Of a stretch of DNA of 64,000 nucleotides, positions 2,403 through 51,190 are shown piece by piece. The DNA lies in the NCBI RefSeq assembly GCF_900177615.1, contig NZ_FXAP01000004.1:310001-374000 (forward strand), read 5' to 3'. The position numbers and the translations under genes were made by a program. How positions within the stretch are numbered: position 1 is the stretch's first letter; every line of letters starts with the position of its first letter. This stretch comes from Plantibacter flavus. GTDB taxonomy: Bacteria; Actinomycetota; Actinomycetes; Actinomycetales; Microbacteriaceae. The notes beneath the pieces were generated by a model that saw nothing but the letters and a program-made list of their open reading frames with translations, was not told the origin of the DNA and ran no database searches.

Positions 2403-2568
2403 GCCAGCGCGGTGCGCTGACGTGAGCGCGGGTCACACGCGTGACCGCGGGTCTCCGGAGGGTCGCGCTCAGGGCTACGACCCGCGCCCACGCCGAATGC
2501 GCGACTCCCGGGTCAGCGCACCGCGCTGACGCCGAGTCCGCCCACCTCACGTCAGCGCACCGCGCTGA
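2403..2568 (+). repeat. Intergenic hairpin element, copy A
   Basis: Left arm CCAGCGCGGTGCGCTGACGT, then GAGCGCGGGTCACACGCG, a central CTCCGGAG palindrome and the CGCCGA core. It ends with two copies of the complementary right arm (TCAGCGCACCGCGCTGA), at about 2512 and 2550. Lies between tRNA-Ser and marR, both rightward. Six relatives occur in the window; see findings. Confidence 0.85.
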
Positions 2569-2588
2569 ATGAGTGGATCATTCGATGG

Positions 2589-2623
2589 TTGACAGTTAGA
2601 ACTCAAAGCGTTAGTGTTCTAAC
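2589..2623 (+). promoter_or_regulatory. marR promoter and operator (leaderless)
   Basis: TTGACA at 2589-2594, 17 bp spacer, TAGTGT at 2612-2617, then 7 nt to the ATG at 2625, so transcription should begin at the start codon. Perfect inverted repeat GTTAGAAC (2595-2602) / GTTCTAAC (2616-2623) brackets the spacer and -10 box, as expected for MarR autorepression. Confidence 0.8.
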
Positions 2624-2624
2624 C

Positions 2625-3068
2625 ATGGACGACGAGACACCCACTCTCAGCAGCGCACTCGAACTGGTCCGTTGGATCGGGTGGGCCCAGCGCAAAGCCG
2701 GCGAGGACTGGATCCGAGCCCGCGAGCTCAGTCACGAACAGGCCTTCGTCCTCGGCCACCTCGTCCGGCATCCAGGATCGAGCCAACGCGACATCGCCGA
2801 GGTGAGCCGGACGAGCGCCGCCAGCGTCTCGAGCCTCCTGCAGGGACTCGAACGTCGAGACCTCGTCGAACGCCGCACGGAAGACGGAAACGCACGCACC
2901 AAGCGCGTCTACGCCACCCCGCTCGGCACCGACCTCATCGCCGGGTTCGAGACCGCGATGGCCGAGGCCGACGACATCATCCTCACCCCGTTGGACCAGA
3001 GCGAACGCGACACCCTGCACGCTCTGCTCACGAAGCTGACGGCCCACCTGCCGCAGCCGACCCGCTGA
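2625..3068 (+). CDS. MarR-family transcriptional regulator
   Basis: 147 aa winged-helix repressor. Residues 50-82 form the helix-turn-helix (SQRDIAEVSRTSAASVSSLL) and 83-98 the wing (DGNARTKRVYATP). A TTG at 2589 also opens the frame, but that would place the -35 box and the operator inside the gene, so ATG 2625 is preferred; there is no Shine-Dalgarno site, which fits leaderless translation. The next gene on the same strand is a MATE exporter 233 bp downstream. MarR-MATE pairs usually form a drug- or phenolic-responsive efflux circuit; the inducer here is unknown. Confidence 0.9.
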   Translation: MDDETPTLSSALELVRWIGWAQRKAGEDWIRARELSHEQAFVLGHLVRHPGSSQRDIAEVSRTSAASVSSLLQGLERRDLVERRTEDGNARTKRVYATPLGTDLIAGFETAMAEADDIILTPLDQSERDTLHALLTKLTAHLPQPTR

Positions 3069-3301
3069 TCGACGCTCGGGGAACCCGAGCTCCCTGACCA
3101 CGCGCCGAGACCACTCGCCGCGTCATCCACCGACCGCCGCACACGATGGCGACCGCGAACGCCACGACGGCGCTGTCCGTCGCGCCCGGACGCCTGCTGA
3201 GCCCTTCCGCCCAGCCGCGCCGGACGACCACCCCATCATCGAACCCTCGCCGCGCCGGCGCTCATCGTCGCGCCCGGAACCCGCCCGAAACGGAGCCTGC
3301 C

Positions 3302-4855
3302 ATGCACCCCGACGACCACACCGATCCGACAACCGGAACACCCATCGACCGCAGCACCGCACCCTCGACGGACGCCGCATCCACGACCACTTCCGTCCCT
3401 GCCGCCGCACCCGACACCGCGACCGCCTCCGCTCCGGTCACCGGCGCCGCGAACGCGGTGGGTGGCAACCGCTGGTACCTCTCGACCGCCCCGATCATCA
3501 GGGCACTGATCCACCTGTGCGTCCCGATGGCAGCGGCCCTGGTCGTGAGCGCCGTCTACAACCTCATCAACGCGGGTGTCGTCGGCTCGCTGCACGACAC
3601 CACCCTGCTCGCCGCGATCACGCTCGGAGCCCCGATCCTCGGACTGATCATGGCCATCGGCGACCTGTTCGGCGTCGGTGGCGGCGCCCTCATCTCCAGA
3701 CTCCTGGGCGCCTCCGAACACGACCCGGCACAGGCCGGGGACATCAAACGGGCCGCCTCCTTCTCCGTCTGGGGCGCATTCCTGACGGGCGCCGTCCTGG
3801 GTGGGATCGGCCTCGTCTTCCTCGGTCCACTCGTGTCACTGCTCGGGGCGGACGCGGTCACCGCCCCGGCGACCTCGGCGTTCATCGGTGTCATGCTCGC
3901 GTTCATCCCCGTCATGGCGACCGCGTTCTGCCTGGAACAGCTCGTGCGGGCCGAGGGTGCCGCCCGTCAGGTGATGATCGCCCTCATCGCGTCGGCCGTG
4001 GCGAACCTCGTCCTCGATCTCGTCTTCATCCTCGGCTTCGGCTGGGGTGTCGCCGGTGCGGCGCTCGCGATGGGCGTGGCGAACCTCGGTGTCCTCGTCT
4101 ACTTCGTGGCGTGGTTGCAGCGCAACAGCGAGCACGTCAGCCTGGCACCGCGCTGGTTCACGCTGTCACCGACCATCCTCAAGCCGGTCCTCGGGGTCGG
4201 TGTCAGCACGCTCCTGCAGTCCGGGTTCCTCATCGTCACCGCGCTCGTGTTGAACACGCTGGCCGCGGCCTACGGAGACGCCCCACTCGCCGCCATGGGC
4301 GTCGCGGTCCGGATCGCCCAGGTACCCGAGTTCCTGGTGATGGGCGTCACCTTCGGCGTGCTCCCACTGCTCGCCTACGCGTTCGGCAAGGGCGACGGCG
4401 CGCGCCTCCGGTCCGCTCTCCGCGCCTCGGCACTCGCGGTCGGTGGGATCTCGGTCCTCTTCGCCGGCGTCGTCTTCGTCCTGCGTGAGCCGATCGTCTC
4501 CGCGTTCATCGCCGATCCCGCCGTCCTCGGCCTCGGCGTCACGATCCTCGTCGCCCAGCTCACCGCGATGATCGCCAACGGGTTCACCGGGCTCATCACC
4601 TCGCTCTTCCAAGCGACCGGGCGAGCACTTCCCGCGGCGGTCATGGCCGTCACCCAGGGCGTGCTGTTCGTCCCGATCGTCCTCCTCGGGAACCTGTGGT
4701 TCGGACTCGGTGGCATCGTCTGGTCGCTCACCGTGACGGAGGTCATCGTCTTCCTGGTGGGGGTCCTGCTCTGGCTCGGCTCGCGACGGGCCATCGATCG
4801 GGGGCTCGCAGCCGGTTCCCCGGAGCGCGCCGAGGCGCAACTCGCCGACGCCTGA
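3302..4855 (+). CDS. MATE-family multidrug efflux transporter
   Basis: 517 aa inner-membrane antiporter. About 50 Thr/Pro/Asp-rich, probably disordered, residues precede roughly 12 membrane helices in the usual two six-helix repeats, starting at about residue 60 (WYLSTAPIIRALIHLCVPMA). The frame is open from 3146, but ATG 3302 has a GGAG site at about 3292 and gives a normal MATE core, so it was chosen. MATE proteins export cationic or amphipathic compounds using a Na+ or H+ gradient. The marR gene upstream points to inducible expression. Hairpin element copy B begins 8 bp after the stop codon and may end the transcript. Confidence 0.9.
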   Translation: MHPDDHTDPTTGTPIDRSTAPSTDAASTTTSVPAAAPDTATASAPVTGAANAVGGNRWYLSTAPIIRALIHLCVPMAAALVVSAVYNLINAGVVGSLHDTTLLAAITLGAPILGLIMAIGDLFGVGGGALISRLLGASEHDPAQAGDIKRAASFSVWGAFLTGAVLGGIGLVFLGPLVSLLGADAVTAPATSAFIGVMLAFIPVMATAFCLEQLVRAEGAARQVMIALIASAVANLVLDLVFILGFGWGVAGAALAMGVANLGVLVYFVAWLQRNSEHVSLAPRWFTLSPTILKPVLGVGVSTLLQSGFLIVTALVLNTLAAAYGDAPLAAMGVAVRIAQVPEFLVMGVTFGVLPLLAYAFGKGDGARLRSALRASALAVGGISVLFAGVVFVLREPIVSAFIADPAVLGLGVTILVAQLTAMIANGFTGLITSLFQATGRALPAAVMAVTQGVLFVPIVLLGNLWFGLGGIVWSLTVTEVIVFLVGVLLWLGSRRAIDRGLAAGSPERAEAQLADA

Positions 4856-4862
4856 CGGACTG

Positions 4863-4990
4863 CCAGCGCGGTGCGCTGACGTGAGCGCGGGTCACACGCG
4901 CGGGCGCGGGCCTCCAGAGGGCCGCGCCCACGTCCATGACCCGCGCTCACGCCGATTGCAGCTATCTCACGTCAGCGCACCGCGCCGGCG
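4863..4990 (+). repeat. Intergenic hairpin element, copy B
   Basis: Left arm CCAGCGCGGTGCGCTGACGT at 4863, core CTCACGCCGATT at about 4946, right arm CTCACGTCAGCGCACCGCGC at about 4966. Lies between the convergent MATE and GNAT genes. About 70 bp of GC-rich sequence without other visible signals follows. Confidence 0.85.
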
Positions 4991-5064
4991 CCCACACCAC
5001 CGCGCTCGGGTCGGCGCTCCGCGCTGGCGACACCCCGCCGGGCGCGCGGACCGGCCCGGGCGCA

Positions 5065-5565
5065 TCACCCCGCCGAGGCGTCGAGGACCACCCGCATCAC
5101 CGCGTTCTCGATGAGCACCCCGCGGCGCTCGACGCGCTGCTCGCGGACCACGACGAAGCCGTGGCGCTCGAACACCGGCTGCGCCGTCCGACTCGCCTGC
5201 ACGGTCACCTCCCCGAGCCCCACCGCCCGGGCTTCGTCGAGCACCTGACGGATGAGCGCGGACCCGACACCGCGTCGTCCCGCGTCCGGATCGACGAACA
5301 GCATGTCGAGGTAGCCGGTCTCGACGTGCAGATCGGTGAATCCGACCACCGAACCGTCGAGCTCGGCCACCCACGTCGTCACCGCGGCACGCCGGGCGGC
5401 CCAATCGTCCAGCACGGCGCCTGCCGGGTCGTCCGGCACCCAGGCGGCGAGCTGCTCGGCCGTGTAGTGGGCGGCAGCCGTCACCCGCACCGCGCGCCGG
5501 AAGACCGACCTGGTCGCTCGCGCATCGGTGTCGCGGTAGCGGCGGATCCGGGCGTCATCGAGCAC
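5065..5565 (-). CDS. GNAT-family N-acetyltransferase
   Basis: 166 aa. The acetyl-CoA binding motif A is visible as DPDAGRRGVGSALIRQ, followed by a motif B region ending FERHGFVVVREQRV. The substrate cannot be predicted. The frame extends to 5613, but GTG 5565 starts where family similarity plausibly begins (LDDARIRRYRDTDA) and has a TAGGCT hexamer 7 nt upstream, which suggests a leaderless mRNA. The gene ends facing MATE with hairpin element copy B between them, and starts 54 bp from the stop of the next leftward gene. Confidence 0.85.
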   Translation of the reverse strand: MLDDARIRRYRDTDARATRSVFRRAVRVTAAAHYTAEQLAAWVPDDPAGAVLDDWAARRAAVTTWVAELDGSVVGFTDLHVETGYLDMLFVDPDAGRRGVGSALIRQVLDEARAVGLGEVTVQASRTAQPVFERHGFVVVREQRVERRGVLIENAVMRVVLDASAG

Positions 5566-5572
5566 GCGCGTC

Positions 5573-5578
5573 AGCCTA
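5573..5578 (-). promoter_or_regulatory. -10 box of leaderless GNAT gene
   Basis: TAGGCT on the minus strand, 7 nt before GTG 5565. Confidence 0.6.
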
Positions 5579-5619
5579 GCCGGAGCGCCGGGAGGCCGCG
5601 ACGCCGCGAGCAAGCGACC

Positions 5620-5979
5620 TCAGCCCTCGAACGCCGGGATCTCCGAGAGCTCGGTGTACACGGGGATTCCGCGCTGACGGGCGATCGCGACGTCGGTGTC
5701 GGCACCGGACGACTCCCCCGGCAACCGGAGTACGGCGTCGCAGTGCTGGAGCAACCGCCTCGCCGTCTCGTACATCACGTCACTGTCGCCCGCCGCGGTG
5801 TCGATCCCACGCAGGATCGGCAGCGCGACCCACTCCCCGATCATCGGGACGTGACCGAGCGCGTAGATGGGCGCCGCAGCGGCTTCGAGTCGTTCCAGGT
5901 TGCGGGCGATGGCGTCGGGATCACCGCCGGTCCCGGAGCGGTAAGGGCCGGCGATGAGAATGAGGAGTGGCGTTGTCAT
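5620..5979 (-). CDS. DUF4406-like nucleoside 2-deoxyribosyltransferase-fold protein
   Basis: 119 aa. The N-terminus LLILIAGPYR followed by a loop and DPDAIARNLERL, plus the GADTDVAIARQRGIPVYT segment, resembles DUF4406 and nucleoside 2-deoxyribosyltransferase-like proteins that bind nucleotides in a Rossmann-like fold. Biochemical function is unknown. The frame is open to 6060, but ATG 5979 lies 7 nt after a TACAGT box (leaderless), which keeps the operator outside the gene. Divergent from deoR with 56 bp between the starts, so the two probably share regulation. Confidence 0.75.
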   Translation of the reverse strand: MTTPLLILIAGPYRSGTGGDPDAIARNLERLEAAAAPIYALGHVPMIGEWVALPILRGIDTAAGDSDVMYETARRLLQHCDAVLRLPGESSGADTDVAIARQRGIPVYTELSEIPAFEG

Positions 5980-5986
5980 GTCCAGC

Positions 5987-6016
5987 ACTGTAGCGTTAAC
6001 CGTGCACGATCGTGCA
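5987..6016. promoter_or_regulatory. Divergent promoter with palindromic operator
   Basis: Perfect 14-bp palindrome TGCACGATCGTGCA at 6003-6016. On the minus strand TTGCAC (overlapping the palindrome), a 19-bp spacer and TACAGT (5987-5992) form the promoter of the 5979 gene. The palindrome also lies 20 bp upstream of the deoR ATG, so a dimeric repressor could control both genes. Confidence 0.7.
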
Positions 6017-6035
6017 ACATCACGAAGGAGCACGC

Positions 6036-6800
6036 ATGCTGAGCGCCCAACGACGGTCACACCTGCTCGACCTCCTCGATCGGGACGGCCGGATCGTCGC
6101 GAAGGACGCCGCTGCTGCGCTCGGACTCTCCGAGGACTCGATCCGCCGAGACCTCCGCGAGCTGGCCGAAGCCGGCCTCTGCGTCCGCGTCTACGGCGGG
6201 GCGCTCCCGGTCCCGGCGGCCGACCGCCCGTTCCGGGATCGACTGTCCCTCGGGACGGCGAGCAAGGAGCGCGTCGCCCGCATCGCCGCCGAGCGGATCC
6301 GACCCGGCAGCACCATCATCATCGACGCCGGCACCACCGCGCTCGCACTCGCGCGACTCCTCCCGGACGACCCGACCCTCACCGTCATCACCCCGAGCCC
6401 GGCGGTCGCACTCGCCGTGGCGGAGCACTCGCCGGCACGCGTCATCATGATCGGCGGCGAACTCGGACGTCACTCGATGGTCGCGGGCGGCGCTCTCGCC
6501 GCGGAAGCCATTCGCCACCTGAGCGCCGACGCCTGCTTCCTCGGCGTCACGGGCTTCCATCCCGAACACGGCCTCACCACCGGCGACCTCGACGACGCCG
6601 CGACGAAACGGGCCCTCGCCGAGCGCAGCACCGACGTCTACGTGCTCGCGAGCGAGGAGAAGGTCGGAGCCGTCTCCCGGTACCCGGTGCTCGATGTCGG
6701 CGAGGTCACCGAGGTCATCGTCGACCCGAAGACGGACGGACCTGATCCATCGACGCGAACCGAGGGTTCAGACGCGCGGGATCATCAGGATCGCGGGTAG
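6036..6800 (+). CDS. DeoR-family transcriptional regulator
   Basis: 254 aa. N-terminal DeoR helix-turn-helix (residues about 5-55, RIVAKDAAAALGLSEDSIRRDL), then a sugar-phosphate-isomerase-like DeoRC sensor domain with GTTALALA and VIMIGGEL motifs and a TTGDLDDAATKRAL segment. These proteins usually sense phosphorylated sugars or nucleosides. ATG 6036 has an AAGGAG site 5 nt upstream; a longer frame from 6012 would run towards the operator. The last 16 bp overlap the converging glycosyltransferase gene. The 14-bp palindrome upstream is the natural binding site and suggests control of itself and the divergent gene. Confidence 0.88.
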   Translation: MLSAQRRSHLLDLLDRDGRIVAKDAAAALGLSEDSIRRDLRELAEAGLCVRVYGGALPVPAADRPFRDRLSLGTASKERVARIAAERIRPGSTIIIDAGTTALALARLLPDDPTLTVITPSPAVALAVAEHSPARVIMIGGELGRHSMVAGGALAAEAIRHLSADACFLGVTGFHPEHGLTTGDLDDAATKRALAERSTDVYVLASEEKVGAVSRYPVLDVGEVTEVIVDPKTDGPDPSTRTEGSDARDHQDRG

Positions 6801-7528
6801 GTCTCGGCGAGGAACGCGGCGTAGCCACCCGGGGTCCGGCCGCGTCGCCGACCCGAGGTCTCGACGGGCGCATCCAGCGTCGGCACGACCTGGAGGCCCG
6901 ATGCCCGGGCACGCTCGACGAGATCGACGTCCTCATGCTCGGCCAGCTCACGGAAGCCGCCGAGTTCGTCGAGCCGATCGGCCCGGACACCCAGATTGGC
7001 CCCGTGTACGTTGCCCGGCAGATGTCCGGGCGGGTGGGTCAGCGACCACCGCTCCACGTCGTCCTCGGAGAAGTCCGTGAAGGCGGGACGGACGGTCCCG
7101 AGGAGGACGTCGACACCGTCGTCGAACGCATCGGCGTGCACGGAGAACCAGTCCTCCGGGACGCGCGAGTCGGCGTCGGTGTTGGCGATCCACCGCTCTG
7201 ACACGTCGGCAGCGGCCGATCCGACAGCACCTGATCCCCCAGCACCCGATCCCACAGCGGCCGCGACACCCGCCCGCCGGGCCGCCCCGACACTGCGCTC
7301 GTCGATGACGACGGTGACCGCCTCCTCGGGGCCGAAGCCCGCCAACCGCGCCCGGACGATCCGCGCCGTGTCGTCGCGGCAGTCGTCGAGCACCACGACG
7401 ATCCCCACCTGCAGCTCGGGACGGACACGCAGCACGGCGGAACGCGCGATGAGCAGCGCGTCGAGGCATGCCCCGATCAGCTCCTCCTCGTCGTGTGCGG
7501 GCACGACGGCATCGATCCGACGCAGCAT
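6785..7528 (-). CDS. Family 2 glycosyltransferase
   Basis: 247 aa GT-A fold enzyme. Begins with IDAVVPAHDEEELIGACLDAL (nucleotide-sugar binding) and has an acidic NTDADSRVP motif equivalent to the metal-binding DXD, followed by the acceptor region GGFRELAEHEDVDL. No membrane segments are seen, so it probably acts at the cytoplasmic face. Its ATG overlaps the stop codon of the upstream gene by one base (TGATG), implying translational coupling. Third gene of an operon with an acyl-CoA dehydrogenase and a deacetylase/methyltransferase, so it probably builds a modified glycoconjugate; donor and acceptor are unknown. Confidence 0.88.
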   Translation of the reverse strand: MLRRIDAVVPAHDEEELIGACLDALLIARSAVLRVRPELQVGIVVVLDDCRDDTARIVRARLAGFGPEEAVTVVIDERSVGAARRAGVAAAVGSGAGGSGAVGSAAADVSERWIANTDADSRVPEDWFSVHADAFDDGVDVLLGTVRPAFTDFSEDDVERWSLTHPPGHLPGNVHGANLGVRADRLDELGGFRELAEHEDVDLVERARASGLQVVPTLDAPVETSGRRRGRTPGGYAAFLAETYPRS

Positions 7529-9995: not shown

Positions 9996-10036
9996 GCGTT
10001 CCGCGTCTGGTGTCGGGGTTCCATCGGTGCGCGCAT
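9992..10036 (-). CDS. Possible 14-aa leader peptide
   Basis: ATG 10036 follows GAGGAGG with a 4-nt gap, the strongest ribosome site in this area. It opens MRAPMEPRHQTRNA and stops at a TGA overlapping ATG 9995 of the acyl-CoA dehydrogenase (ATGA). It could couple or regulate translation of the operon. The alternative is that the dehydrogenase starts further upstream and the site is chance. Confidence 0.4.
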   Translation of the reverse strand: MRAPMEPRHQTRNA

Positions 10037-10125
10037 GCGACCTCCTCGCGTCGTGGAGGTCCAAGTCTCGCACCGCCACGCGACGCCGCCCGCCCCTGGA
10101 CCGCGACCATCGACCCTGGTAGTGG

Positions 10126-10357
10126 GTCAGCGCGGTGCGCTGACGCGAGCGCGGGTCAGCGACGTGGGCGCGGGTCTCCGGAGGGGTGCCAGCGCGGTGC
10201 GCTGACGCGAGCGCGGGTCATCGACGTGGGCGCGGGTCTCCGGAAGGGCGCGCTCGGTCGCCTGACCCGCGCTCACGCCGATTCCCTCGGGTTCACGTCA
10301 GCGCACCGCGCTGACGCCAGGTTTCGACACCTCAGCCCAGCGCACCGCGCCGGCACC
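10126..10357 (+). repeat. Intergenic hairpin element, copy C (left half duplicated)
   Basis: The left half (GCGCGGTGCGCTGACGCGAG and following) occurs twice with a period of about 61 bp, at about 10127 and 10188. Then come the CGCTCACGCCGATTC core at about 10269 and two right arms at about 10292 and 10335. Lies between two leftward genes. It fills most of the 306-bp gap between the dehydrogenase operon and acdS. Confidence 0.85.
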
Positions 10358-10385
10358 CCGCTCGGGCGAGGTGCCGGGCACCGGC

Positions 10386-12897: not shown

Positions 12898-12985
12898 CCG
12901 ACACGTCTCGCACCGGCTACTGCGATGGAGCGCCAGAGCGCTGTCGCACCGCGCGGGATCCGGTCCGGGTCGGACACCGACCGGG

Positions 12986-13600: not shown

Positions 13601-13644
13601 ACCGGCGGGGCACCCCGACGGACCGGTTCGCCGTCTTTCGGGTG

Positions 13645-13975
13645 CCTGCTCCCCCTCCCGGTACTTGAGCTCCCACCCTCCCGGTCCTTGAGCTCCCACC
13701 CTCCCGGTCCCTGAGCCCCCACCCTCCCGGTCCCTGAGCCCCCACCCTCCCGGTCCCTGAGCCCCAGCCTCCCCGGTCCCTGAGCCTGTCGAAGGGCGGC
13801 ATTCCTTCGTGAGCCCGTCCCCCACCCTCCGGTCCCTGAGCCCCAGCCTCCCCGGTCCCTGAGCCTGTCGAAGGGCGGCGTTCCTTCGTGAGCCCGCCCC
13901 CCACCCTCCGGTCCCTGAGCCCCAGCCTCCCCGGTCCCTGAGCCTGTCGAAGGGCGGCGTCCACCCGTGTGCCCT
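13645..13975. repeat. Tandem array built on GGTCCCTGAGCC
   Basis: First part: about five copies of a 20-22 bp unit CCTCCCGGTCCCTGAGCCCC. Second part: about three copies of a 75-80 bp unit containing CCCTGAGCCTGTCGAAGGGC plus TTCCTTCGTGAGCCCG. The longer unit contains the dispersed repeat found elsewhere in the window. No gene is supported here. Confidence 0.85.
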
Positions 13976-14135
13976 TCGGTAAGCTCAGGGACCGATCGAG
14001 GTGCGGCCCAGGGATCGAGGTGCGGCCCGAAATCCGACCGAGGGGGCGATCGAGGTGTGGCCCAAGGATCGAGGAGCGGCCCAGGGTCCGACCGAGGAGC
14101 GGCCCAGGGACCGACCGAGGGGGCGATCAAGGCGC
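13976..14135. repeat. Tandem array built on GATCGAGGTGCGGCCCAGGG
   Basis: Begins with an inverted dispersed repeat (CCTTCGGTAAGCTCAGGGAC) and continues as about six degenerate 20-21 bp units. The reading frames through it are low-complexity and not supported as genes. Confidence 0.75.
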
Positions 14136-14187
14136 GACCCACGGACCACCCGAGGCACGACCCACGCCCCGGTTCAACCGGGTTGCC

Positions 14188-15076: not shown

Positions 15077-15083
15077 GTACGCG

Positions 15084-15298
15084 CCCTTCGACAAGCTCAG
15101 GGACCGGGGAACCACTCAGGGAACGGGGAACCACTCAGAGACCGCGAACCACTCAGGGACCGAGGAACCACTCAGAGACCGGGGAACCGCTCAGGGAACG
15201 GGGGAACCTTCTGGGACCGGGGGAACCTTCTGGATCGGGACTCCACTCAGGGAATGGGGAACCGCTCAGGGGAACGGGACACCGCTTGAGGAACGGGG
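15084..15298. repeat. Tandem array built on CTCAGGGACCGGGGAACCA
   Basis: Starts with the dispersed repeat CCTTCGACAAGCTCAGGGAC and then repeats its tail as about eleven 19-21 bp units (GGGACCGGGGAACCACTCA) with drift. Fills the 229-bp gap between the kinase and the converging HerA-type gene. Confidence 0.85.
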
Positions 15299-18950: not shown

Positions 18951-19078
18951 CAGCGCGGTGCGCTGACGTGAGCGCGCCGCGCGCGCGTGAGCGCGGGTCT
19001 CCGGAGACCTGCGCTCACGCAGCCGGGATGCGCTGGCGCCGACTCCCCGGCACTCACGTCAGCGCACCGCGCCGGCAC
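18951..19078 (+). repeat. Intergenic hairpin element, copy D
   Basis: Left arm CAGCGCGGTGCGCTGACGTG, central GGTCTCCGGAGACC palindrome, right arm CTCACGTCAGCGCACCGCGC. Shortened core without CGCCGATTC. Between two leftward genes. Confidence 0.85.
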
Positions 19079-20715: not shown

Positions 20716-21768
20716 TCAAGACACGTCTGCAGCTGAGGAATCGGCACCGACCGGCGAGGTCGCGGTCGACTCGCGTCGCACCAGTTCGAAGTCGGCGTAG
20801 ACCCGACGGGGAGGCACGTCGTCGACTCCCCCGGCGATCCGCTCGATGAGCAGCGACACGGCGGTCCGGGCGATCTGCTCCCGCCCCGGTGCGATCGTCG
20901 ACAGCGACGGCAGGGAGTACCGACCCTCGTCGATGTCGTCGAAGCCGATGACCGCGACCTCGTCGGGCATGGCGACGCCTCGTTCACTCAGGACCCGCAT
21001 GGCTCCGAGCGCCAGGGCGTCGTTGAACGCGACGATGCCGTCGAACGCGACACCCTCATCGAGCATCGCGCGCATCGCGACCGCTCCATCGAAGCGGCCC
21101 CAGACCGGGACCTCTCGGACGAGCGCAGGATCGAACACCATGCCGGCAGCGTCCAGCGCGGCTCGGTAGCCGGCGAGACGCAGACTGGCCGAACTGACGA
21201 TGTCGGCGCGGTGCGCTCCGAAGGCGACGATCCGCGTCCGACCGAGCGCGATCAGGTGCTCCGTCGCGGCACGCGCTCCCTCGGTGTTGCGCATCGTCAC
21301 GTGGTCGTTCGGAGCGTTGAACATGCGTTCACCGAGGAGCACCATCGGGATGGTGACCTCCTCCACGACGGCGAGGTCCTCGTCGCCGAGGTGGAGCGCG
21401 CTGTAGAGGACGCCGTCGACCGCACGGAGTCGTGCGCCGCGCAACAACTCGGCCTCGCGCGCCCGGTCGCCGCCGCTCAGCTCGATCAGCACCGACAGGC
21501 CGAGCTGGTCGGCGGCGTGCATGACGGCGTCGGCGAGTTCGGCGAAGTAGGAGTTCCGGAGGTCGGGGATGATCAGGCTGATGACGCCGGACCGGCCGGA
21601 GCGGAGCCCCCGTGCGGAGAGGTTCGGGCGGTAGCCGAGCTCGGCGATCGCCGCGAGCACCCGCTCCTTCGTCGCCTGCTTGATGTGGGGGTAGTCGTTG
21701 ACGACGTTCGAGACGGTCTTGGCGGACACCCCGGCGAGCTTCGCCACGTCGTGCAGGGTGGTCGCCAT
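20716..21768 (-). CDS. LacI-family transcriptional regulator (first paralogue)
   Basis: 350 aa. Helix-turn-helix at residues 4-25 (TLHDVAKLAGVSAKTVSNVV), hinge with YRPNLSARGLRSGRSG, then a periplasmic-binding-protein-like sensor domain with VIGFDDIDEGRY near the end. ATG 21768 has GAGGAGG upstream. It lies 28 bp beyond the GH51 operator and directly downstream of a second, closely similar lacI gene. The likely effector is an arabinose-related sugar, inferred from the operator shared with GH51 and araB. Confidence 0.9.
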   Translation of the reverse strand: MATTLHDVAKLAGVSAKTVSNVVNDYPHIKQATKERVLAAIAELGYRPNLSARGLRSGRSGVISLIIPDLRNSYFAELADAVMHAADQLGLSVLIELSGGDRAREAELLRGARLRAVDGVLYSALHLGDEDLAVVEEVTIPMVLLGERMFNAPNDHVTMRNTEGARAATEHLIALGRTRIVAFGAHRADIVSSASLRLAGYRAALDAAGMVFDPALVREVPVWGRFDGAVAMRAMLDEGVAFDGIVAFNDALALGAMRVLSERGVAMPDEVAVIGFDDIDEGRYSLPSLSTIAPGREQIARTAVSLLIERIAGGVDDVPPRRVYADFELVRRESTATSPVGADSSAADVS

Positions 21769-21810: not shown

Positions 21811-21824
21811 TCTACAACGTTGAA
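21811..21824. promoter_or_regulatory. Operator half-site overlapping a stop codon
   Basis: TCTACAACGTTGAAGG repeats exactly the left part of the GH51 operator. On the minus strand it covers the last three codons and TAG stop of the 21,812-22,864 lacI gene and lies 43 bp before the next lacI start. Confidence 0.7.
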
Positions 21825-22864
21825 GGAGCGGCCCCGGATCCGGGCGTGTGGGCGATCAAGGAACCGGTGGACTCCCTCGGGACGACGAGGAAGCCGCTGA
21901 CGATCGCGCGCGGAGCCTCCGGCTGCCCGGGTGCGGCGATCCGCTCGATCAGGAGCTCGACGGCGCGCTCGGCGATCTCCTCCCGGCCGATGTCGACCGT
22001 GGACAGGGTGGGGAGGGCGTAGCGCGTCTCGTCCAGGTCGTCGAAGCCGATGATCGCGACGTCGTCGGGGATCCGGAGCCCGGCGTCCTGCAGGACGCGC
22101 ATGGCGCCGAGGGCCATCGCATCGTTGAAGGCGACCACGCCGTCGAACGGCAGGCCTGCGGCGATGACCTCGCGCATCGCGTTCGCCCCGTCGCTGCGGT
22201 GCCAGCTGACGACGGTGCTGACGTAGGCCGGATCGGCGGGGATGCCGGCGGCTTCGAGCGCCTCCCGATACCCCTGGAGGCGGAGGGCGGCCGGGCCCAG
22301 GGTGTCGTGCGGGTCGGTGCCGAGCGCGACGATCCGGCGTCTGCCCTGCGCGAGCAGGTGTTCGGTCGCCGCGCGGGCTCCGTCGACGTTGGCCATCGTC
22401 ACGTGGTCGCGGTCGCCGTCGAACAGTTGCTCACCGAGGATCACCATGGGCCCGTCCGGGAGCAGCGCGCTGTCGTCGCGGTCGAGGCTGAGCGGGCTGT
22501 AGAGGATGCCGTCGACGAGCTGCATGCGCGGCCCGCGGAGGATCTCGAGCTCGACGTCACGTCCGCCGGCCACCTGCTCGATGAGCACCGAGAGCCCGCG
22601 CGCACGAGCCTGACGCATGACCGCGTCGGCGAGCTCCGCGAAGTAGGCGTTGCGGAGGTCGGGGATGATGAGGCTGATCACGCCGGACCGACCTGAGCGG
22701 AGACTCCGGGCCGAGAGGTTGGGGCGGTAGCCGAGTTCGGCGATCGCCCGCTCGACCTTGGAGCGGGTCGCGTCGCTCACGTGCGGGTAGTCGTTGACGA
22801 CGTTCGAGACGGTCTTGATCGAGACACCCGCGCGGGCGGCGACGTCGTGCATCGTGATCGACAC
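21812..22864 (-). CDS. LacI-family transcriptional regulator (second paralogue)
   Basis: 350 aa, same length and clearly the same subfamily as the gene downstream: both share SNVVNDYPH in the DNA-reading region, ELGYRPNLSAR, LRSGRSGVISLIIPDLRN and AFNDA-ALGAMRVL. The near-identical recognition helices suggest that both bind related operators, while the divergent sensor halves suggest different inducers. Start ATG 22864 lies after GGAGGAGACGCG. The 43-bp gap to the downstream copy, with an operator sequence in it, suggests a tandem duplication followed by separate control. Confidence 0.9.
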   Translation of the reverse strand: MSITMHDVAARAGVSIKTVSNVVNDYPHVSDATRSKVERAIAELGYRPNLSARSLRSGRSGVISLIIPDLRNAYFAELADAVMRQARARGLSVLIEQVAGGRDVELEILRGPRMQLVDGILYSPLSLDRDDSALLPDGPMVILGEQLFDGDRDHVTMANVDGARAATEHLLAQGRRRIVALGTDPHDTLGPAALRLQGYREALEAAGIPADPAYVSTVVSWHRSDGANAMREVIAAGLPFDGVVAFNDAMALGAMRVLQDAGLRIPDDVAIIGFDDLDETRYALPTLSTVDIGREEIAERAVELLIERIAAPGQPEAPRAIVSGFLVVPRESTGSLIAHTPGSGAAPSTL

Positions 22865-22935: not shown

Positions 22936-23106
22936 CCAGCGCGGTGCGCCCACGCGAGCGCGGGTCAGTGGCCCCGGCCAGCGCGGTGCGCCCACGCGAG
23001 CGCGGGTCAGACGCGTGGGCGCCGGCCTCCGGAGGGGTGCGGTCACGCGCATGGCCCGCGCTCACACCGATTCGATCGATCTGGGGTCAGCGCACCGCGC
23101 TGGCGT
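22936..23106 (+). repeat. Intergenic hairpin element, copy E (left half duplicated)
   Basis: Two left arms (CCAGCGCGGTGCGCCCACGC) at about 22936 and 22978, CTCCGGAGG centre, core CGCTCACACCGATTCG, right arm GTCAGCGCACCGCGCTGGCG. The left arms carry CCCACG instead of TGACGT. Fills most of the 306-bp gap between two leftward genes. Confidence 0.8.
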
Positions 23107-24578: not shown

Positions 24579-24746
24579 CCGGCGCGGTGCGCTGGCCCGA
24601 ACCGCCCCGAACCGGCGTCAGCGCGGTGCGGCCATCCGAGTGACCGCGAACCGGCGTGACCGCGGGGCGCAGCCGTGAGCGCACCGCTCCGGAGACCCGC
24701 GCTCACGCCACAGGACCGCGCTCACGTCAGCGCACCGCGCTGGCGC
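24579..24746 (+). repeat. Intergenic hairpin element, copy F (diverged)
   Basis: Diverged left arm CCGGCGCGGTGCGCTGGC, a partial second left arm at about 24616, CTCCGGAGACC centre, and an intact right arm CTCACGTCAGCGCACCGCGC ending at about 24746, 12 bp before the stop of the converging MFS gene. Confidence 0.75.
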
Positions 24747-39710: not shown

Positions 39711-39737
39711 TGGTGGGTTCTTTCTTGAGGTCGTTTC

Positions 39738-39838
39738 GGTCCCTGAGCCTGTCGAAGCGCGGGACCGTGGCGGGGTGGCCCATCGACAAGCTCAGGGACC
39801 GGGAGGGTGTCAGGGACCGGGAGGGTGTCAGGGACCGG
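39738..39838. repeat. Dispersed-repeat hairpin and tandem tail between araD and araA
   Basis: GGTCCCTGAGCCTGTCGA (39738-39755) pairs with TCGACAAGCTCAGGGACC (39783-39800), one wobble. The tail GGGAGGGTGTCAGGGACC then repeats twice. Same family as the arrays at 13.6-15.3 kb and the hairpin at 47.1 kb. Confidence 0.85.
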
Positions 39839-42447: not shown

Positions 42448-42485
42448 TATTGCCGTGGCCATGGACAGGACGATGCGATCTCGAC

Positions 42486-44222: not shown

Positions 44223-44263
44223 GCGTCGGATCGATCCGGGTTCCGCGGTCGCGGACCTCGGGA

Positions 44264-45517: not shown

Positions 45518-45548
45518 TGCGGTTCTCCTTCGATCCGTCCGCGCCCGC

Positions 45549-47087
45549 CTAGCGGGGCTTCTCCATGGTCATGAGTTTGAGGAGCGCTTCGGGGTTCGCT
45601 TCCTCGATCGGCAGTTCGCCGGTGATGCGGCCCTCGCTGAGGGCGTAGATGCGGTCGCAGATGCCGATGAGCTCGGGGAGCTCGGAGGAGATGACGATGA
45701 CGCCCTTCCCCTCGGCGGCGAGGCGGTTGATGATCGTGTAGATCTCGTACTTCGCACCGACGTCGATGCCACGGGTGGGCTCATCGAGGATGAGGACGTC
45801 GGGGTCGGAGTAGATCCACTTCGAGAGGACGACCTTCTGCTGGTTTCCGCCCGAGAGCTTCCCGGTCTTCGCGAGCACGTTCGGAGCCTTGATGTTCATG
45901 CTCTTCCGGTACTCCTCGGCGACCTTGTACTCCTCGTTGTCGTTGACGAGTCCGCCGCGTTCGAGCTTCTTCAGCGAGGCCATCGAGATGTTCCGCTTGA
46001 TGTCCTCGATGAGGTTGAGGCCGTAGTACTTGCGGTCCTCGGTGGCGTACGCGAGTCCGTTGTCGATCGCCTCCGACACCGTGCGGGTGCGGATCTCGGT
46101 GCCGTTCTTGAAGACCTTGCCGCTGATGCGGCTGCCGTACGACTGGCCGAACAGGCTCATCGCGAACTCGGTGCGGCCGGCACCCATGAGGCCGGCGATG
46201 CCGACGATCTCACCGGCGCGGACGTTGAGGTTGACGGCGTCCACCATCACGCGGGTCGGGTCCTGCGGGTGGTGGGCGGTCCAGTCCTCGACACGCAGGA
46301 TCTCCTCGCCGATGTTCGGCGTGTGGTCCGGGTAGCGGTGCTCGAGGTCGCGGCCGACCATGTCCTTGATGATGCGCTCTTCGGTGACGTCGTTCTTCAC
46401 GATCGTCTCGATGGTCTTGCCGTCGCGGATGACGGTGACGGTGTCGGCGACCTTCTTGATCTCGTTGAGCTTGTGACTGATGATGATCGACGTGATCCCC
46501 TGCTCCTTGAGGTGCAGGATCAGGTCGAGCAGGTGGTCGGAGTCCTCGTCGTTCAGTGCGGCGGTCGGCTCGTCGAGGATGAGGAGCTTCACGCGCTTCG
46601 AGAGGGCCTTCGCGATCTCGACGAGCTGCTGCTTGCCGACGCCGATCTCGAGGATCTTGGTCGTCGGGTTCTCCCGCAGGCCGACCCGGGCGAGCAGTGC
46701 TGCCGCCTCCTGGTTGGTGCGGTTCCAGTCGATGAGGCCGAGCGGCCCCTTCAGCTCGTTGTTGAGGAAGATGTTCTCCGCGATGGAGAGGTAGGGGCTG
46801 AGGGCCAGCTCCTGGTGGATGATGACGATGCCCTTGGACTCCGAGTCGCGGATGTCCTTGAACTCCATCGTCTCGCCCTCGAAGACGATGTCGCCCTCGT
46901 AGGTGCCGAACGGGTAGACGCCGGACAACACCTTCATGAGCGTCGACTTGCCGGCGCCGTTCTCACCGCAGATGGCGTGCACGGTACCGCGCTGCACATC
47001 GAGCGTGACGTTCGAGAGGGCCTTGACGCCGGGGAAGGTCTTGATGATGTTGCGCATCTCGAGGATGCTCGTGGTCTCGCCTGACAC
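45549..47087 (-). CDS. mmsA: Monosaccharide ABC transporter ATPase (MmsA/GguA type)
   Basis: 512 aa, two ABC domains. First domain: Walker [29 protein letters not shown] and [11 protein letters not shown]. Second: [10 protein letters not shown] (the usual variant in this family), [13 protein letters not shown] and [13 protein letters not shown]. All catalytic motifs of the active site are intact, unlike its paralogue at 42,486. GTG 47087 has an AAGGAG site. Separated from the binding-protein gene by a 107-bp gap with a strong hairpin. Confidence 0.95.
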
Positions 47088-47127
47088 CGTGTCTCCTTAC
47101 AGGTGATCGTCGTTGAACCGGGCCCTC

Positions 47128-47173
47128 CGACAGGCTCAGGGATCGGAAGTGATTCCGTTCCCTGAGCCTGTCG
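47128..47173. repeat. Dispersed-repeat hairpin between binding protein and mmsA
   Basis: CGACAGGCTCAGGGA (47128-47142) and TCCCTGAGCCTGTCG (47159-47173), perfect 15-bp arms, extended inward by CGGAA/TTCCG around GTGA. Could limit read-through from the highly expressed binding-protein gene or protect its mRNA end. Confidence 0.85.
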
Positions 47174-47194
47174 AAAAGGGTGTTGCAGGACTGA

Positions 47195-48319
47195 CTAGCC
47201 CTTGATCTCGTCTTCGGTCCAGTAACCGGAGTCCACGAGGACCTCCTGGATGTTGTCCTTGACGACGATCTGCGACTCGAGGAGGAAGGACGGGACGACC
47301 TTCTTGCCGTTGTCGTAGTCCTCGGTGTTGTTGACCTCGGGCTTCTCACCGTTCAGCACGGCGACGGCCATCTTGACGGCTTCGCTCGCCAGCTGGCGGG
47401 TGTCCTTGAAGATGGTCGCGTACTGCTCGCCGGACTCGATGGCCTTGACCGAGTCGAGCTCGGCGTCCTGGCCGGAGATGACGGGCCAGCCGTCGCCCAC
47501 CGAGTAGCCGGCGTCGGTCAGCGCCGAGATGATGCCTCGCGAGATGCCGTCGTAGGGCGACAGGACCGCGTTGACCTTGCTGCCGTCGGAGTAGGTCGAC
47601 GTGAGGATGTTCTCCATACGCTTCTGCGCGGTCTCACCGTCCCAACGGAGCGTTGCAGCCTGCTCGAAGGACGTCTGGCCGCTGGCGACCTTGAGGGTGC
47701 CCGCGTCGATGAACGGCTTCAGGGTGTCCTGAGCGCCGTCCCAGAAGAACGTGGCGTTGTTGTCGTCGGGCGAGCCGGCGAACATCTCGATGTTGAACGG
47801 ACCGGCGGGTGCGCCCTCGGTGGGCTTGCCCTCGAGGTCGACGAGGCCGAGGCCGTTGAGGACCGAGTTGGCCTGCTGCACGCCGACCTTGTAGTTGTCG
47901 AACGACGCGTAGTAGTCGACGTTCTCGCTGTCGCGGATCAGGCGGTCGTAGGCGATGACGGGGATGTCGCCGTCCTTGGCCTCCTGCAGCACGCTCGTGA
48001 GCGTGGTGCCGTCGATCGAGGCGATGATCAGGACGGAGGCGCCCTTGGTGATCATGTTCTCGATCTGCGAGACCTGGGTCGGGATGTCGTCCTCGGCGTA
48101 CTGCAGGTCGACCTTGAAGCCCTCCTTCTCCAGCTGCTCCTTGACGGCGTTGCCGTCCTGGATCCAGCGCTCGGAGCTCTTGGTGGGCATCGCGACGCCG
48201 ACGAGCTTGCCGTCGCCTTCGCCGCCGCCCGATCCGCCGCTTGCGCCGCCGGAGCAACCGGCGAGCGACACGACCATCGTGCCTGCGGCCAGCGTGGCGA
48301 GGAGCATTCTCTTCTTCAC
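47195..48319 (-). CDS. chvE: Monosaccharide ABC transporter binding lipoprotein (ChvE type)
   Basis: 374 aa. Signal peptide with lipobox SLAGC; the mature part starts in a Gly/Ser-rich linker. Periplasmic-binding-protein-like fold with [59 protein letters not shown] and [20 protein letters not shown], characteristic of the ChvE/multiple-monosaccharide group (arabinose, glucose, galactose, xylose). ATG 48319 follows AGGGAAGGAACCACAC. First gene of the importer operon; a LacI-type operator lies 294 bp upstream, so the mRNA has a long leader or a second promoter. Confidence 0.92.
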
Positions 48320-48612
48320 TGTGTGGTTCCTTCCCTAGGGAGTTGCTTGGACGTCATTGTCATGCGCAGGTCTGTCGGCATCGATGTGTCCAGCTCATCG
48401 AGGCCGCTCGTCGGCTACGTGGCGTTCGCGGGTGCGGGTGCGGACGCCTCGTCGTGGTGCCGGCGAGGGTGCAGGGAGAGGTGGCCGGCGGAGAGCCGGG
48501 CCGAGAGGGAGTCGTGGTCGGATCGATCGGTGCCGTGGATCGGGAGGCGGCTCATCGCCGACCTGCTCGCTCCATTGCGCTTCGTTCCCACGTCGACTTC
48601 CTCGTCACTCCG
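48320..48612 (-). promoter_or_regulatory. Long leader region of the monosaccharide ABC operon
   Basis: The 501-bp gap 48,320-48,820 contains no supported gene. From the operator at 48,613 to the binding-protein start is 294 bp, GC-rich, without a recognisable riboswitch. The remaining 190 bp (48,631-48,820) have no visible signal other than GTGTGTCACAC next to the operator. Confidence 0.35.
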
Positions 48613-48630
48613 AATGTGACCGTTCACATT
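48613..48630. promoter_or_regulatory. LacI-type operator of the monosaccharide ABC operon
   Basis: Palindrome AATGTGA-CCGT-TCACATT (7-bp perfect arms). Its first 11 bases are repeated at 49,941 before the neighbouring lacI gene. Confidence 0.8.
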
Positions 48631-48820
48631 GTGTGTCACACGATAGCCCCAGACCTCCACCTGATGTCAAGTCGGGATGGGTCTCATTTTCATAACCGGC
48701 GACGGTCGGGGCATGGTCGCGCTCTCAGTGGGCCCGTGCGGACACGTACCCCGGCCACGGGCACGCCTTGCACGGCGTACCTGTAACCCGGGGACGTGCC
48801 CGGGCGATCCCAGTGGTCGC

Positions 48821-49840
48821 CTAGAGTTCGGCGTCGATGGCGCGGATGACGTCCCAGGCGCCGTCCTCGGAGTTCGACAGCACGACGACGTCGATGGCGT
48901 CCGCGGCGGTCGGGCCGAAGTAGGTGCGGACGATGCCGCTCGCGCCGGGGTTGACACCGTCGAGGTACATCGATCGCACCTGACCGTCCTCGTCGACGTC
49001 GAACTCGAAGCCGAAGCCGTAGGAGATCTCCTCGTCGACCTCGATCTGCGGGGAGGTGAACTCCTCCGTCAGCTCGGCGGTGAGGATCTTCGCGTCGCGG
49101 GCGGCGCGCAGGAAGGTGATGAGGTCGGCCGCGGTGGACTGTGCACCGGCGTCGGGGCCGCCGAGCGGCGGGAAGGCGTCGGCGTTCGAGTGCCAGACGC
49201 CGTCGTCGTCGACGTCGCCGCCCTCGGCTAGGCCGGGCTCGCCCGTCCGGCGGTCGACGAAGCCCGAGTGGTCCATGCCGAGCAGCGCGAACACCTGCTG
49301 CTCGATGAGCTGGCGGTAGGGCAGTCCCGTCACGCCCTCGAGCGCGAGCCCGAGCAGCACGTAGCCCGCGTTGACGTAGTTCGCCTCCTCGCCAGGGGCC
49401 GCGAGCGGCTCCTTGTCGGCGAAGAGCGGCAGGAGGTCGGCGGTCTCGCGGATCGACGAGGCCGGGCGCTCCGCCCAGAGGTCGTCGTAGCTCTCGCCGG
49501 CGGTCTCGTCGGCGTCGTCGGCGATGCCGGAGGTGTGGGTGAGCAGGTGGAGCAGCTGGACGTCGCGGCGGATGGTGGTGCCGTCGAGGTCGACGTACTC
49601 GTGGATCGACTCGTCGAGGTCGATGTGTCCGGCGTCGACCTGCTGGAGCACGGCGGCGGCGGTGAAGAGCTTCGTGATGGACGCCGTGTCGAAGCGGGTG
49701 TCGAGGGTGATGGGCTCGTCTCGCTCCCGGGAGGCGAGGCCGCGGGCGGCCTCGAAGAGCGTCTCGTCACCGCGCTTGACGAGCACGACGCCCGAGAAGT
49801 CGGTGGCTTCGATGACGCGGGCGACGCTTTCGGTATCCAT
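48821..49840 (-). CDS. Serine hydrolase, beta-lactamase class C/EstB family
   Basis: 339 aa. SxxK motif in TASITKLF (Ser/Lys), YxN motif in YVNAGYVLLG, plus HLLTHTSGIADD. No signal peptide, so it is cytoplasmic and more likely an esterase or peptidase than a drug-resistance beta-lactamase. ATG 49840 lies 6 nt after a TACCGT box; the longer frame (to 49957) runs through the lacI operator. Divergent from the LacI gene, 134 bp between starts. Substrate unknown. Confidence 0.85.
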   Translation of the reverse strand: MDTESVARVIEATDFSGVVLVKRGDETLFEAARGLASRERDEPITLDTRFDTASITKLFTAAAVLQQVDAGHIDLDESIHEYVDLDGTTIRRDVQLLHLLTHTSGIADDADETAGESYDDLWAERPASSIRETADLLPLFADKEPLAAPGEEANYVNAGYVLLGLALEGVTGLPYRQLIEQQVFALLGMDHSGFVDRRTGEPGLAEGGDVDDDGVWHSNADAFPPLGGPDAGAQSTAADLITFLRAARDAKILTAELTEEFTSPQIEVDEEISYGFGFEFDVDEDGQVRSMYLDGVNPGASGIVRTYFGPTAADAIDVVVLSNSEDGAWDVIRAIDAEL

Positions 49841-49846
49841 CCCCCA

Positions 49847-49852
49847 ACGGTA
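49847..49852 (-). promoter_or_regulatory. -10 box of leaderless hydrolase gene
   Basis: TACCGT on the minus strand, 6 nt before ATG 49840. Confidence 0.55.
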
Positions 49853-49940
49853 CCGTCGCGGACCCCTCCATGGCTCCACGCACCCTGGGGGACCCGATCC
49901 GTCAGGTGCCGGACGCGCGTGCATAATGGGTGCAGCACGA

Positions 49941-49958
49941 AATGTGACCGTGCACATC
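49941..49958. promoter_or_regulatory. LacI autoregulatory operator
   Basis: AATGTGACCGTGCACATC, matching the operator at 48,613 in 16 of 18 positions. A CATAAT at about 49,922 lies just upstream, so the repressor would block its own promoter. GTG 49975 follows 16 bp later. Confidence 0.8.
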
Positions 49959-49974
49959 GAGGTCCGAGGAATCC

Positions 49975-50994
49975 GTGAGCGACGACGCCGAACGGGGGCG
50001 AGCCCCCAATATCCGTGATGTCGCGCGCCTGGCCGGGGTCTCCCACCAGACGGTCTCGCGAGTGCTCAACAACCATCCGAGCATCCGCGACTCGACCCGC
50101 GACCGGGTCCTCGCCGTCATGGACGAGGTCAACTACCGTCCGAACCGGGCGGCCAGGGCGCTCGTGACGAGTCGGTCGCGCACCATCGGCGTGCTCGCGA
50201 GCCAGCGGTCGCAGTACGGTCCGGCGAGCATGATCCAGGCGATCGAGAACGCGAGCAAGGACGCCGGGTACCTCGTCAGCACGGCGAACCTGCCCGACGT
50301 CTCCGACGCGTCGATCGTCGCCGCCGTCGAGCATCTGCTCGCGCAGTCGGTCGACGGCATCGTGGTCATCGCGCCGCAGGTCCGGGTGTTCCGGGCGATC
50401 GAGGAGTTGCAGGTGCGGGTGCCGTTCATCGCGGTGCAGTCCGGCGGCGACCTCGACGACCACTCGATCGGCGTCGACCAGGTCGCCGGTGGACGTTTGG
50501 CGACGCGGCACCTCATCGAGCTCGGGCATCGGAACATCTACCACCTCGCCGGCCCGCAGGACTGGATCGAGGCCGAGGCGCGCATGCACGGGTTCCTCGC
50601 CGAGATGAGTGCGCAGGACGTGCCGACGACCGCGCCGATCCTCGGTGACTGGACGGCCGACTTCGGCTATCGCGCCGGGATCGAACTCATGCGGGTGCGC
50701 GACTTCACGGCGATCTTCTCGTCGAACGACCAGATGGCGCTCGGCCTCATCCACGCGATCCGCGACGAGGGGTACGACGTGCCGCGCGACGTGTCGATCG
50801 TGGGGTTCGACGACATCCCGGAGGCGCCCCATTTCTGGCCGCCGCTCACGACGGTGCGGCAGGACTTCGACGAGCTGGGGCGTCGCTGTGTCGCGCGGCT
50901 GCTCGGCAACCTCGAGGTCGACGCCGTCGGGTACCGCGGAACGATCGAGCCGGAGCTCATCGTGCGGAAGTCGACGGGTCGTCCGGCCTTCTGA
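49975..50994 (+). CDS. LacI-family regulator of the monosaccharide ABC operon
   Basis: 339 aa. Helix-turn-helix NIRDVARLAGVSHQTVSRVL and hinge YRPNRAARALVTSRSRTIGV, then a sugar-binding sensor domain ending FDDIPEAPHFWPPLTTVRQD. A recognition helix SHQTVSR differs from the SAKTVSN/SIKTVSN of the arabinose-type paralogues, consistent with a different operator. GTG 49975 is the start. Shared operators tie it to itself and the chvE-mmsA-mmsB operon 1.6 kb away; effector not known, perhaps arabinose or galactose. A hairpin element (copy G) ends the gene. Confidence 0.9.
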   Translation: MSDDAERGRAPNIRDVARLAGVSHQTVSRVLNNHPSIRDSTRDRVLAVMDEVNYRPNRAARALVTSRSRTIGVLASQRSQYGPASMIQAIENASKDAGYLVSTANLPDVSDASIVAAVEHLLAQSVDGIVVIAPQVRVFRAIEELQVRVPFIAVQSGGDLDDHSIGVDQVAGGRLATRHLIELGHRNIYHLAGPQDWIEAEARMHGFLAEMSAQDVPTTAPILGDWTADFGYRAGIELMRVRDFTAIFSSNDQMALGLIHAIRDEGYDVPRDVSIVGFDDIPEAPHFWPPLTTVRQDFDELGRRCVARLLGNLEVDAVGYRGTIEPELIVRKSTGRPAF

Positions 50995-51022
50995 CCCTGG
51001 TGGTCGTGTGTGGTGTGGTGGC

Positions 51023-51190
51023 GCCAGCGCGGTGCGCTGACGTGAGCGCGGGTCACACGCGTGAGCGCTACCCTCCGGAGGCCCGCGCTCGAGTCCACGC
51101 CCCGCGCCCACGCCGATTCGGGCGAGCTCACGTCAGCGCACCGCGCTGACACCGGGTGGGCACGTCTCGCGCCAGCGCACCGCGCTGACC
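51023..51190 (+). repeat. Intergenic hairpin element, copy G
   Basis: Left arm CCAGCGCGGTGCGCTGACGT at 51023, CTCCGGAGG centre, core CCCACGCCGATTC at about 51107, right arm CTCACGTCAGCGCACCGCGC at about 51127 and a second, weaker right arm at about 51172. Between convergent lacI and ROK genes. The most complete copy, together with A. Confidence 0.85.

Follow-up and report, generated by a model that had tools for sequence, protein, structure and literature searches.

It has long been asked whether the REP- and ERIC-like palindromes that lie between bacterial genes act as RNA hairpins, serve as sites for proteins or are simply junk. The question is raised here by a repeat that occurs seven times, each time in a gap between genes, in a 64,000-nucleotide stretch of Plantibacter flavus DNA (the window; positions 310001-374000 of contig C3 in the 4.3-Mb genome G000). 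The family is small and inherited largely in place over seven species, so that its paralogues and orthologues together help to separate these readings. We therefore compared the copies in the window with those elsewhere in G000 and in six Plantibacter relatives (G001-G006).

Copies in the window and their modular anatomy

The first-pass annotation had placed copies at 2403, 4863, 10126, 18951, 22936, 24579 and 51023, and all seven were present as described. The repeat is real: with up to three mismatches allowed, the arm CAGCGCGGTGCGCTGACGT had 17 matches in the window where 0.18 were expected, a number that none of 100 shuffles reached. The parts of the copies were as follows.

2405..2528, plus strand: copy A, 124-bp core, downstream of a tRNA gene (2238-2322) and upstream of a MarR-family gene
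2529..2567, plus strand: copy A, extra 39-bp right module
4864..4987, plus strand: copy B, 124-bp core, between convergent MatE-family and acetyltransferase-family genes
4988..5026, plus strand: copy B, degenerate extra 39-bp right module
10128..10189, plus strand: copy C, extra 62-bp left module
10190..10313, plus strand: copy C, 124-bp core, in a co-directional gap
10314..10352, plus strand: copy C, extra 39-bp right module
18951..19074, plus strand: copy D, 124-bp core, in a co-directional gap
22937..22978, plus strand: copy E, extra 42-bp left module
22979..23102, plus strand: copy E, 124-bp core, in a co-directional gap
24580..24618, minus strand: copy F, extra 39-bp module
24619..24742, minus strand: copy F, 124-bp core in reverse orientation, in a convergent gap
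51025..51148, plus strand: copy G, 124-bp core, between convergent LacI-family and ROK-family genes
51149..51187, plus strand: copy G, extra 39-bp right module

The copies had been described as sharing arms, a centre and a core. The arms were common to them, but the copy at 24579 runs in reverse (core at 24619-24742 on the minus strand); the core GCTCACGCCGATTC was exact only in one copy (at 10271), with one mismatch in three, and two cores, those from 4864 and from 10190, had a changed centre CTCCGGAG. The proposal that copies rearrange in arm number was borne out by changes between orthologous copies and by the extra arms in the window: 39 bp on the right at 2529, 4988 (degenerate), 10314 and 51149, 62 and 42 bp on the left at 10128 and 22937, and likewise a 39-bp module in copy F at 24580. 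Separately, two neighbouring LacI-family regulator genes in the window (20716-21768 and 21812-22864; 89% identical over 134 nt and 75% over 108 nt) resemble a tandem duplication.

The usual core is 124 bp long with arm starts 105 bp apart. Thirty-four cores, chosen by this dominant arm spacing of 105, aligned over 124 columns without a gap. Each is composed of modules of 19-20 bp, three right-facing and four left-facing, that meet across CTCCGGAG. The majority modules are, from the left, U1 CAGCGCGGTGCGCTGACGt, U2 GAGCGCGGgtCnnnggCGT and U3 GAGCGCGggtCTCCGGAGg and, from the right, V1-V4; the innermost ones, U3 and V4, overlap at CTCCGGAG, and the word AGCGCG is present in six of the seven. Arm spacings were counted in 1.70 Mb of the seven genomes, where orthologous copies are included and the counts are hence not independent. 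Of the 184 listed spacings between a right-pointing arm and the left-pointing arm that follows it, 103 were 105, 27 were 144/145, 19 were 85/86, 6 were 125 and 29 had another value; arms of the same direction lay 39 bp apart in 50 cases. Such quantised spacings indicated that the element mostly lengthens or shortens in steps of 19-20 bp, one or two modules at a time. Orthologous copies sometimes differed by one whole 39-bp module (for example, 163 versus 124 bp) and others differed irregularly. As this module is gained or lost between some orthologs of G000 and its relatives, the repeat may be useful as a length marker in strain typing. An inversion of the centre between copies (GGGTC...GGGGC versus GCCCC...GACCC) was also considered. 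It was judged weak: all 77 ortholog pairs had the same orientation, and the apparent anti-covariation of the centre inside single genomes was inconsistent (0.02 to 0.56 of shuffles at or below the observed value).

Taxonomic range and comparison with known repeats

A search of the whole genome and of relatives, as proposed by the first-pass annotation, placed the repeat in all seven Plantibacter genomes and not convincingly outside the genus. With up to two mismatches, the arm had 87 matches in G000 and 35-91 per genome in the six Plantibacter relatives; 53 genomes from elsewhere in the family and order had 0 or 1 match each. These arm matches defined 43 loci in G000, and 39 and 41 loci were analysed in two complete relatives; at least one weaker G000 locus, C3:440921, turned up in a profile search and lies outside the 43, and the arm places of G004 are those listed, to which a few may be additional. 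All 13 stretches matched in a paired-arm pattern scan of named genomes were from Plantibacter. A sequence-only core profile, applied with strict filters to 150 family genomes, matched three Plantibacter genomes and, marginally, one other (profile searches scored 150 candidates per genome in one search and 23 in the family-wide one). The marginal match came from a different genus (genome G128) at E = 6e-4; it had no arms by eye, resembled coding sequence and looked like chance. Neither the arm counts in 53 genomes nor the profile in 150 family genomes thus gave a convincing copy outside Plantibacter.

Several known origins were rejected. One window copy, queried against plasmid and phage collections, gave no match at E <= 0.001, which argues against plasmid or phage carriage. 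A search of the window against Rfam at the gathering threshold returned a tRNA as the sole match, and a known RNA family was dismissed on this result. The Y1 (RAYT) transposase PF01797 was found at E <= 0.001 in 0/7 Plantibacter genomes and in 5/14 control genomes, so that RAYT-driven REPs were also discarded. Among the literature matches listed, we found no published account of Plantibacter or Microbacteriaceae repeats.

One close comparison is with CGTC-tagged REPs. As described in PMC3733652, these have a stem of 8-9 bp, a loop of 4-5, an unpaired CGTC tag at one end and a CCA-like tail, and occur mainly as dimers with the tags outside, the inward (TT) order being rare; five phyla are listed there for these REPs, and Actinobacteria is not among them. 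The Plantibacter repeat is similar to such dimers in its small palindromes beside a CGTC-like word, inverted around a conserved structured spacer, and similar to the REPs described there in lying near gene 3' ends and in having no known dedicated transposase (PMC3733652). Unlike those REPs, it has a stem of 6 bp and a loop of 3 (the next outward pair beyond the stem is C-A in 93/117 left arms), its word faces inward in the aligned cores, and it is built of 19-20-bp modules. With ERIC/IRU elements, as described in PMC2229807, it shares a length of about 125 bp, inverted symmetry, intergenic location, multiple copies and restriction to a taxon. It differs in its modular 19-20-bp build and its phylum, and the TA given there for ERIC/IRU termini was found just outside either end in 0/43 G000 loci. 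Two inverted REP-like arms with a spacer and long persistence in a lineage recall REPIN/RAYT and BIME systems (PMC8049555). Unlike REPIN/RAYT, the seven Plantibacter genomes yielded no RAYT-type (Y1) transposase, and the family has a few dozen loci, many of them in place across species. In contrast to intrinsic terminators, the hairpin is not followed by a T tract at any of the 43 G000 loci (on both sides, no 8-nt window in the 15 nt past the outer ends contained more than three T). The Plantibacter repeat is a new variant within the REP/ERIC-like repeats.

Gene context and base pairing

Gene context, which rests on a home-made gene caller, was determined for the loci of each genome. Our gene calls confirmed the arrangement given earlier for the window, namely three copies in convergent, four in co-directional and none in divergent gaps. 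The absence from divergent gaps did not extend to whole genomes. Convergent, co-directional and divergent gaps held 19, 19 and 5 of the 43 loci in G000 and 17, 18 and 4 of the 39 in G004, with none inside genes in either; G001 had 3/28 in divergent gaps, and in the sampled parts of G002, G003, G005 and G006 the numbers were 0/13, 0/19, 0/15 and 0/17. Three of the five divergent G000 loci were flanked on both sides by open frames of at least 230 aa; of the other two, one had on one of its sides a frame of 125 aa, and the left neighbour of the other lay at a distance of 938 bp. The suggested bias to gene 3' ends did hold genome-wide. Compared with element-free intergenic base pairs of the same regions, the distribution over gap classes was skewed in G000 (chi-square, p = 1.9e-9) and G004 (p = 3.6e-8), and none of 425 arms lay well inside a called gene in the DNA examined from the seven genomes. 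The count by flanking orientation therefore supported the earlier expectation in part: copies were about nine times denser per base in convergent than in divergent gaps (9.1 in G000, 9.7 in G004), but divergent gaps were not empty, and their deficit relative to co-directional gaps alone was not significant (p = 0.12 and 0.09, respectively). The median distance to the stop codon was 20 bp in convergent gaps. In co-directional gaps it was 33 bp to the stop versus 73 bp to the downstream start, and 15/19 loci were closer to the stop (p = 0.019).

These short distances (20 and 33 bp from the stop versus 73 bp to the start) are consistent with an RNA-level 3'-end element or a DNA cruciform, in which a very stable arm-arm hairpin in the transcript of either strand would terminate transcription or protect mRNA 3' ends. 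All seven window copies also folded far better than shuffles (z from -4.9 to -9.5). Strong folding is also expected because the conserved sequence is near-palindromic, and invariant pairs are uninformative on pairing either way. Changes at paired positions were compared across copies and between orthologs.

Across copies, positive covariation was absent, whether 117 copies, the 34 aligned ones or the copies inside single genomes were considered. In the 117 copies, the top 20 pairs by mutual information were all at most three positions apart, and 0/60 listed pairs fell on a proposed helix. The paired fraction was 0.84 in the centre versus 0.86 after shuffling of partners, with likewise no excess in the middle, and 0.936 versus 0.934 between the arms (89/500 shuffles as high); for the right arm hairpin, 35/500 shuffles were as high. 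The A1 covariation score was 0.079 versus 0.106 in shuffles, all 500 of which were as high, and partners slid by 1 to 3 columns gave 0.042 to 0.069. G-U pairs on the sense strand of co-directional copies were not in excess (137 G-U versus 124 A-C mismatches).

Between orthologs, one class of change differed. Among 11 double changes between the outer arms, 9 kept the pair versus 4.0 expected, a value reached by 3/500 shuffles. The nine rows are not independent, as they derive from six loci of which some recur in two or three species. They fall at column pairs 16-109, 19-106 and 2-123; over all 117 copies, neither of the first two pairs showed an association (534 and 790 of 2000 shuffles). The same pattern could also arise if the inverted arms undergo gene conversion with each other. 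Elsewhere, pair-keeping double changes were not in excess (centre, 3 vs 5.3 expected; middle, 9 vs 7.3; right hairpin, 1 vs 1.0), and single changes often broke pairs (61/119 in the centre). The predicted compensatory changes were thus hinted at in the outer arms of orthologs and absent across copies; pairing is kept at best between the outer arms. Gene-end position, strong folds and these arm-arm changes speak for the RNA or cruciform reading, and the lack of covariation, the broken centre pairs, the absence of a G-U excess and of a T tract, and the copies in divergent gaps speak against it. RNA structure as the selected feature, as first suggested, is accordingly mostly unsupported, and we consider this reading rather unlikely.

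Inheritance, sequence constraint and place on the chromosome

When loci were matched between species by their flanks, many proved to lie at corresponding places. Four of the window's seven loci were present in all seven genomes, one was missing from G004 only and one from both G005 and G002; for the locus at 18951, no match was obtained by flanks. Two absences outside the window retained an arm remnant, indicating deletions. In a check for target site duplications, eight loci with absences were aligned, and none gave a clean empty site open to polarisation. Some orthologous gene pairs, such as the convergent pair C8:39355 in G005, had no element, which suggests that it is dispensable at single loci. 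Most of the loci are old and have been inherited at fixed positions.

Constraint was examined in 77 ungapped 124-mer ortholog pairs found by profile (7 for G005 and 6 for G002); as intact 124-mers were required, the result applies to surviving copies. Conserved and variable columns were set from the G000 paralogues, which also form one side of each pair. The 51 paralogue-conserved columns form a comb over the left part (1-7, 9-14, 17-18, 21, 23-26, 30, 39, 42-44, 49-51 and 54-56) and the right part (62-63, 66, 80-81, 89-90, 104, 112-122 and 124). They were 98-99% identical between orthologs in all six relatives, and fourfold sites of the flanking genes were 66-89% identical. Identity at the 29 paralogue-variable columns was close to that of fourfold sites: 85.6% vs 88.5% in G001, 79.3% vs 84.5% in G003, 85.1% vs 87.8% in G004, 85.1% vs 86.1% in G006, 65.0% vs 65.9% in G005 and 56.9% vs 66.1% in G002. 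Variable columns therefore change as fast as fourfold sites or slightly faster, and comb columns do not. Selection preserves sequence at the comb positions more than it preserves base pairing.

This result bears on a second explanation, that the repeat is the relic of a non-autonomous mobile element (REP/ERIC/MITE-like) which spread before the genus radiated, with insertions away from gene ends purged. Inverted terminal repeats, dispersed copies, a gene-end bias that matches the published one for REPs and two deletion losses with arm remnants would fit such a relic. Old loci would be expected to decay under it, but the surviving ones have not (conserved columns 98-99% identical versus 66% at fourfold sites). 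Moreover, 0/7 genomes had a Y1 transposase, 0/50 locus groups, many with data from few species, gave a clean recent insertion, the queried window copy had no plasmid or phage match, and TA was outside the ends of 0/43 G000 loci. We regard a mobile relic as unlikely.

The kept comb, pairing that is at best confined to the outer arms, the age of the loci and the avoidance of promoters are best fitted by a modular DNA site that is bound by protein. We tentatively favour, at somewhat less than even confidence, a Plantibacter-specific, mostly vertically inherited modular site for a putative protein, acting as a boundary or roadblock at gene ends. The modular anatomy, the conservation pattern, the near-neutral drift elsewhere, the positional inheritance and the gene-end bias are observed, and from them we infer the binding protein and the boundary action. 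Every module would recruit a single unit of a dedicated protein, and the bound modules would form a dyad-symmetric array. Such an array might survive only where promoters are undisturbed, mostly a few tens of bases past stop codons, and could there limit or block transcription or supercoiling in both directions. Against a protein-bound site stand a module period that is a non-integer number of helical turns, 29/184 arm spacings off the main values, 5/43 divergent loci, the lack of the element in some orthologous gene pairs, the strong folds and the arm-arm double changes. The comb positions are named targets for mutation, and the element itself can be used as bait for finding a binding protein.

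The distribution along the chromosome was examined from dnaA (G006:391 and G004:772289). Loci per decile of half-chromosome distance from dnaA numbered 1, 4, 9, 9, 10, 4, 1, 3, 0 and 0 in G006 and 1, 6, 3, 9, 8, 5, 6, 1, 0 and 0 in G004, two genomes that have loci in common and are thus not independent. Copies were sparse near dnaA, and about 1.3 Mb around the inferred terminus had none. The largest gap (1.36 Mb in G006, 1.32 Mb in G004) was reached in 0/20,000 random placements; after clusters within 25 kb were merged, the two largest gaps gave p = 0.008 and 0.036. Samples of the G006 origin and terminus zones (400 kb, 59 convergent gaps) contained no element (best E = 2), nor did 19 G004 stretches (59 convergent gaps), a twentieth covering known copies. 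As convergent gaps are present in the element-free zones, a shortage of them does not explain the absence. The possibility that the terminus gap is no more than recent DNA was contradicted in the part that was compared: of the G006 stretches, three from the terminus matched G004 at 96% identity over 59-79% of their length, one from the origin at 95% over 83%, and three from the element zones at 92-96% over their full length. Five other G006 terminus stretches matched G004 over 1% or less, their counterparts being outside the sampled DNA or nonexistent.

This distribution would suit an operator array for a Plantibacter chromosome-organising protein, which would mark about 40 mid-replichore gene boundaries, be excluded from the terminus and mostly from the origin, and have its occupancy tuned by module number; we hold this putative role to be quite unlikely. 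Supercoil release, as in BIMEs, is a possible DNA-level function. A binding site for gyrase or a nucleoid protein with a part in supercoil release or in the organisation of chromosome arms, BIME-like in function without being a BIME, would agree with the enrichment in convergent gaps, the confinement to mid-replichore zones and constraint at the level of sequence. Avoidance of the terminus may be general, as an abundant repeat of another kind likewise seems thinly spread over part of the G004 terminus half; this weakens the candidate, and we consider it improbable.

That second, unrelated repeat, with the word CCTTCGACAAGCTCAGGGACCG, is far commoner in Plantibacter. At up to two mismatches, the word had 541 matches in G000, 180 to 454 in the six relatives and no more than one per genome in 33 genomes from elsewhere in the family and order. 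Among the copies listed for G004, it kept to one strand over a long stretch and had one copy between 2.06 and 2.72 Mb, in the terminus half. In the window, it occurs, in part as tandem copies, at 13630-14145, 15077-15264, 39737-39821, 47122-47181 and 62778-62823.
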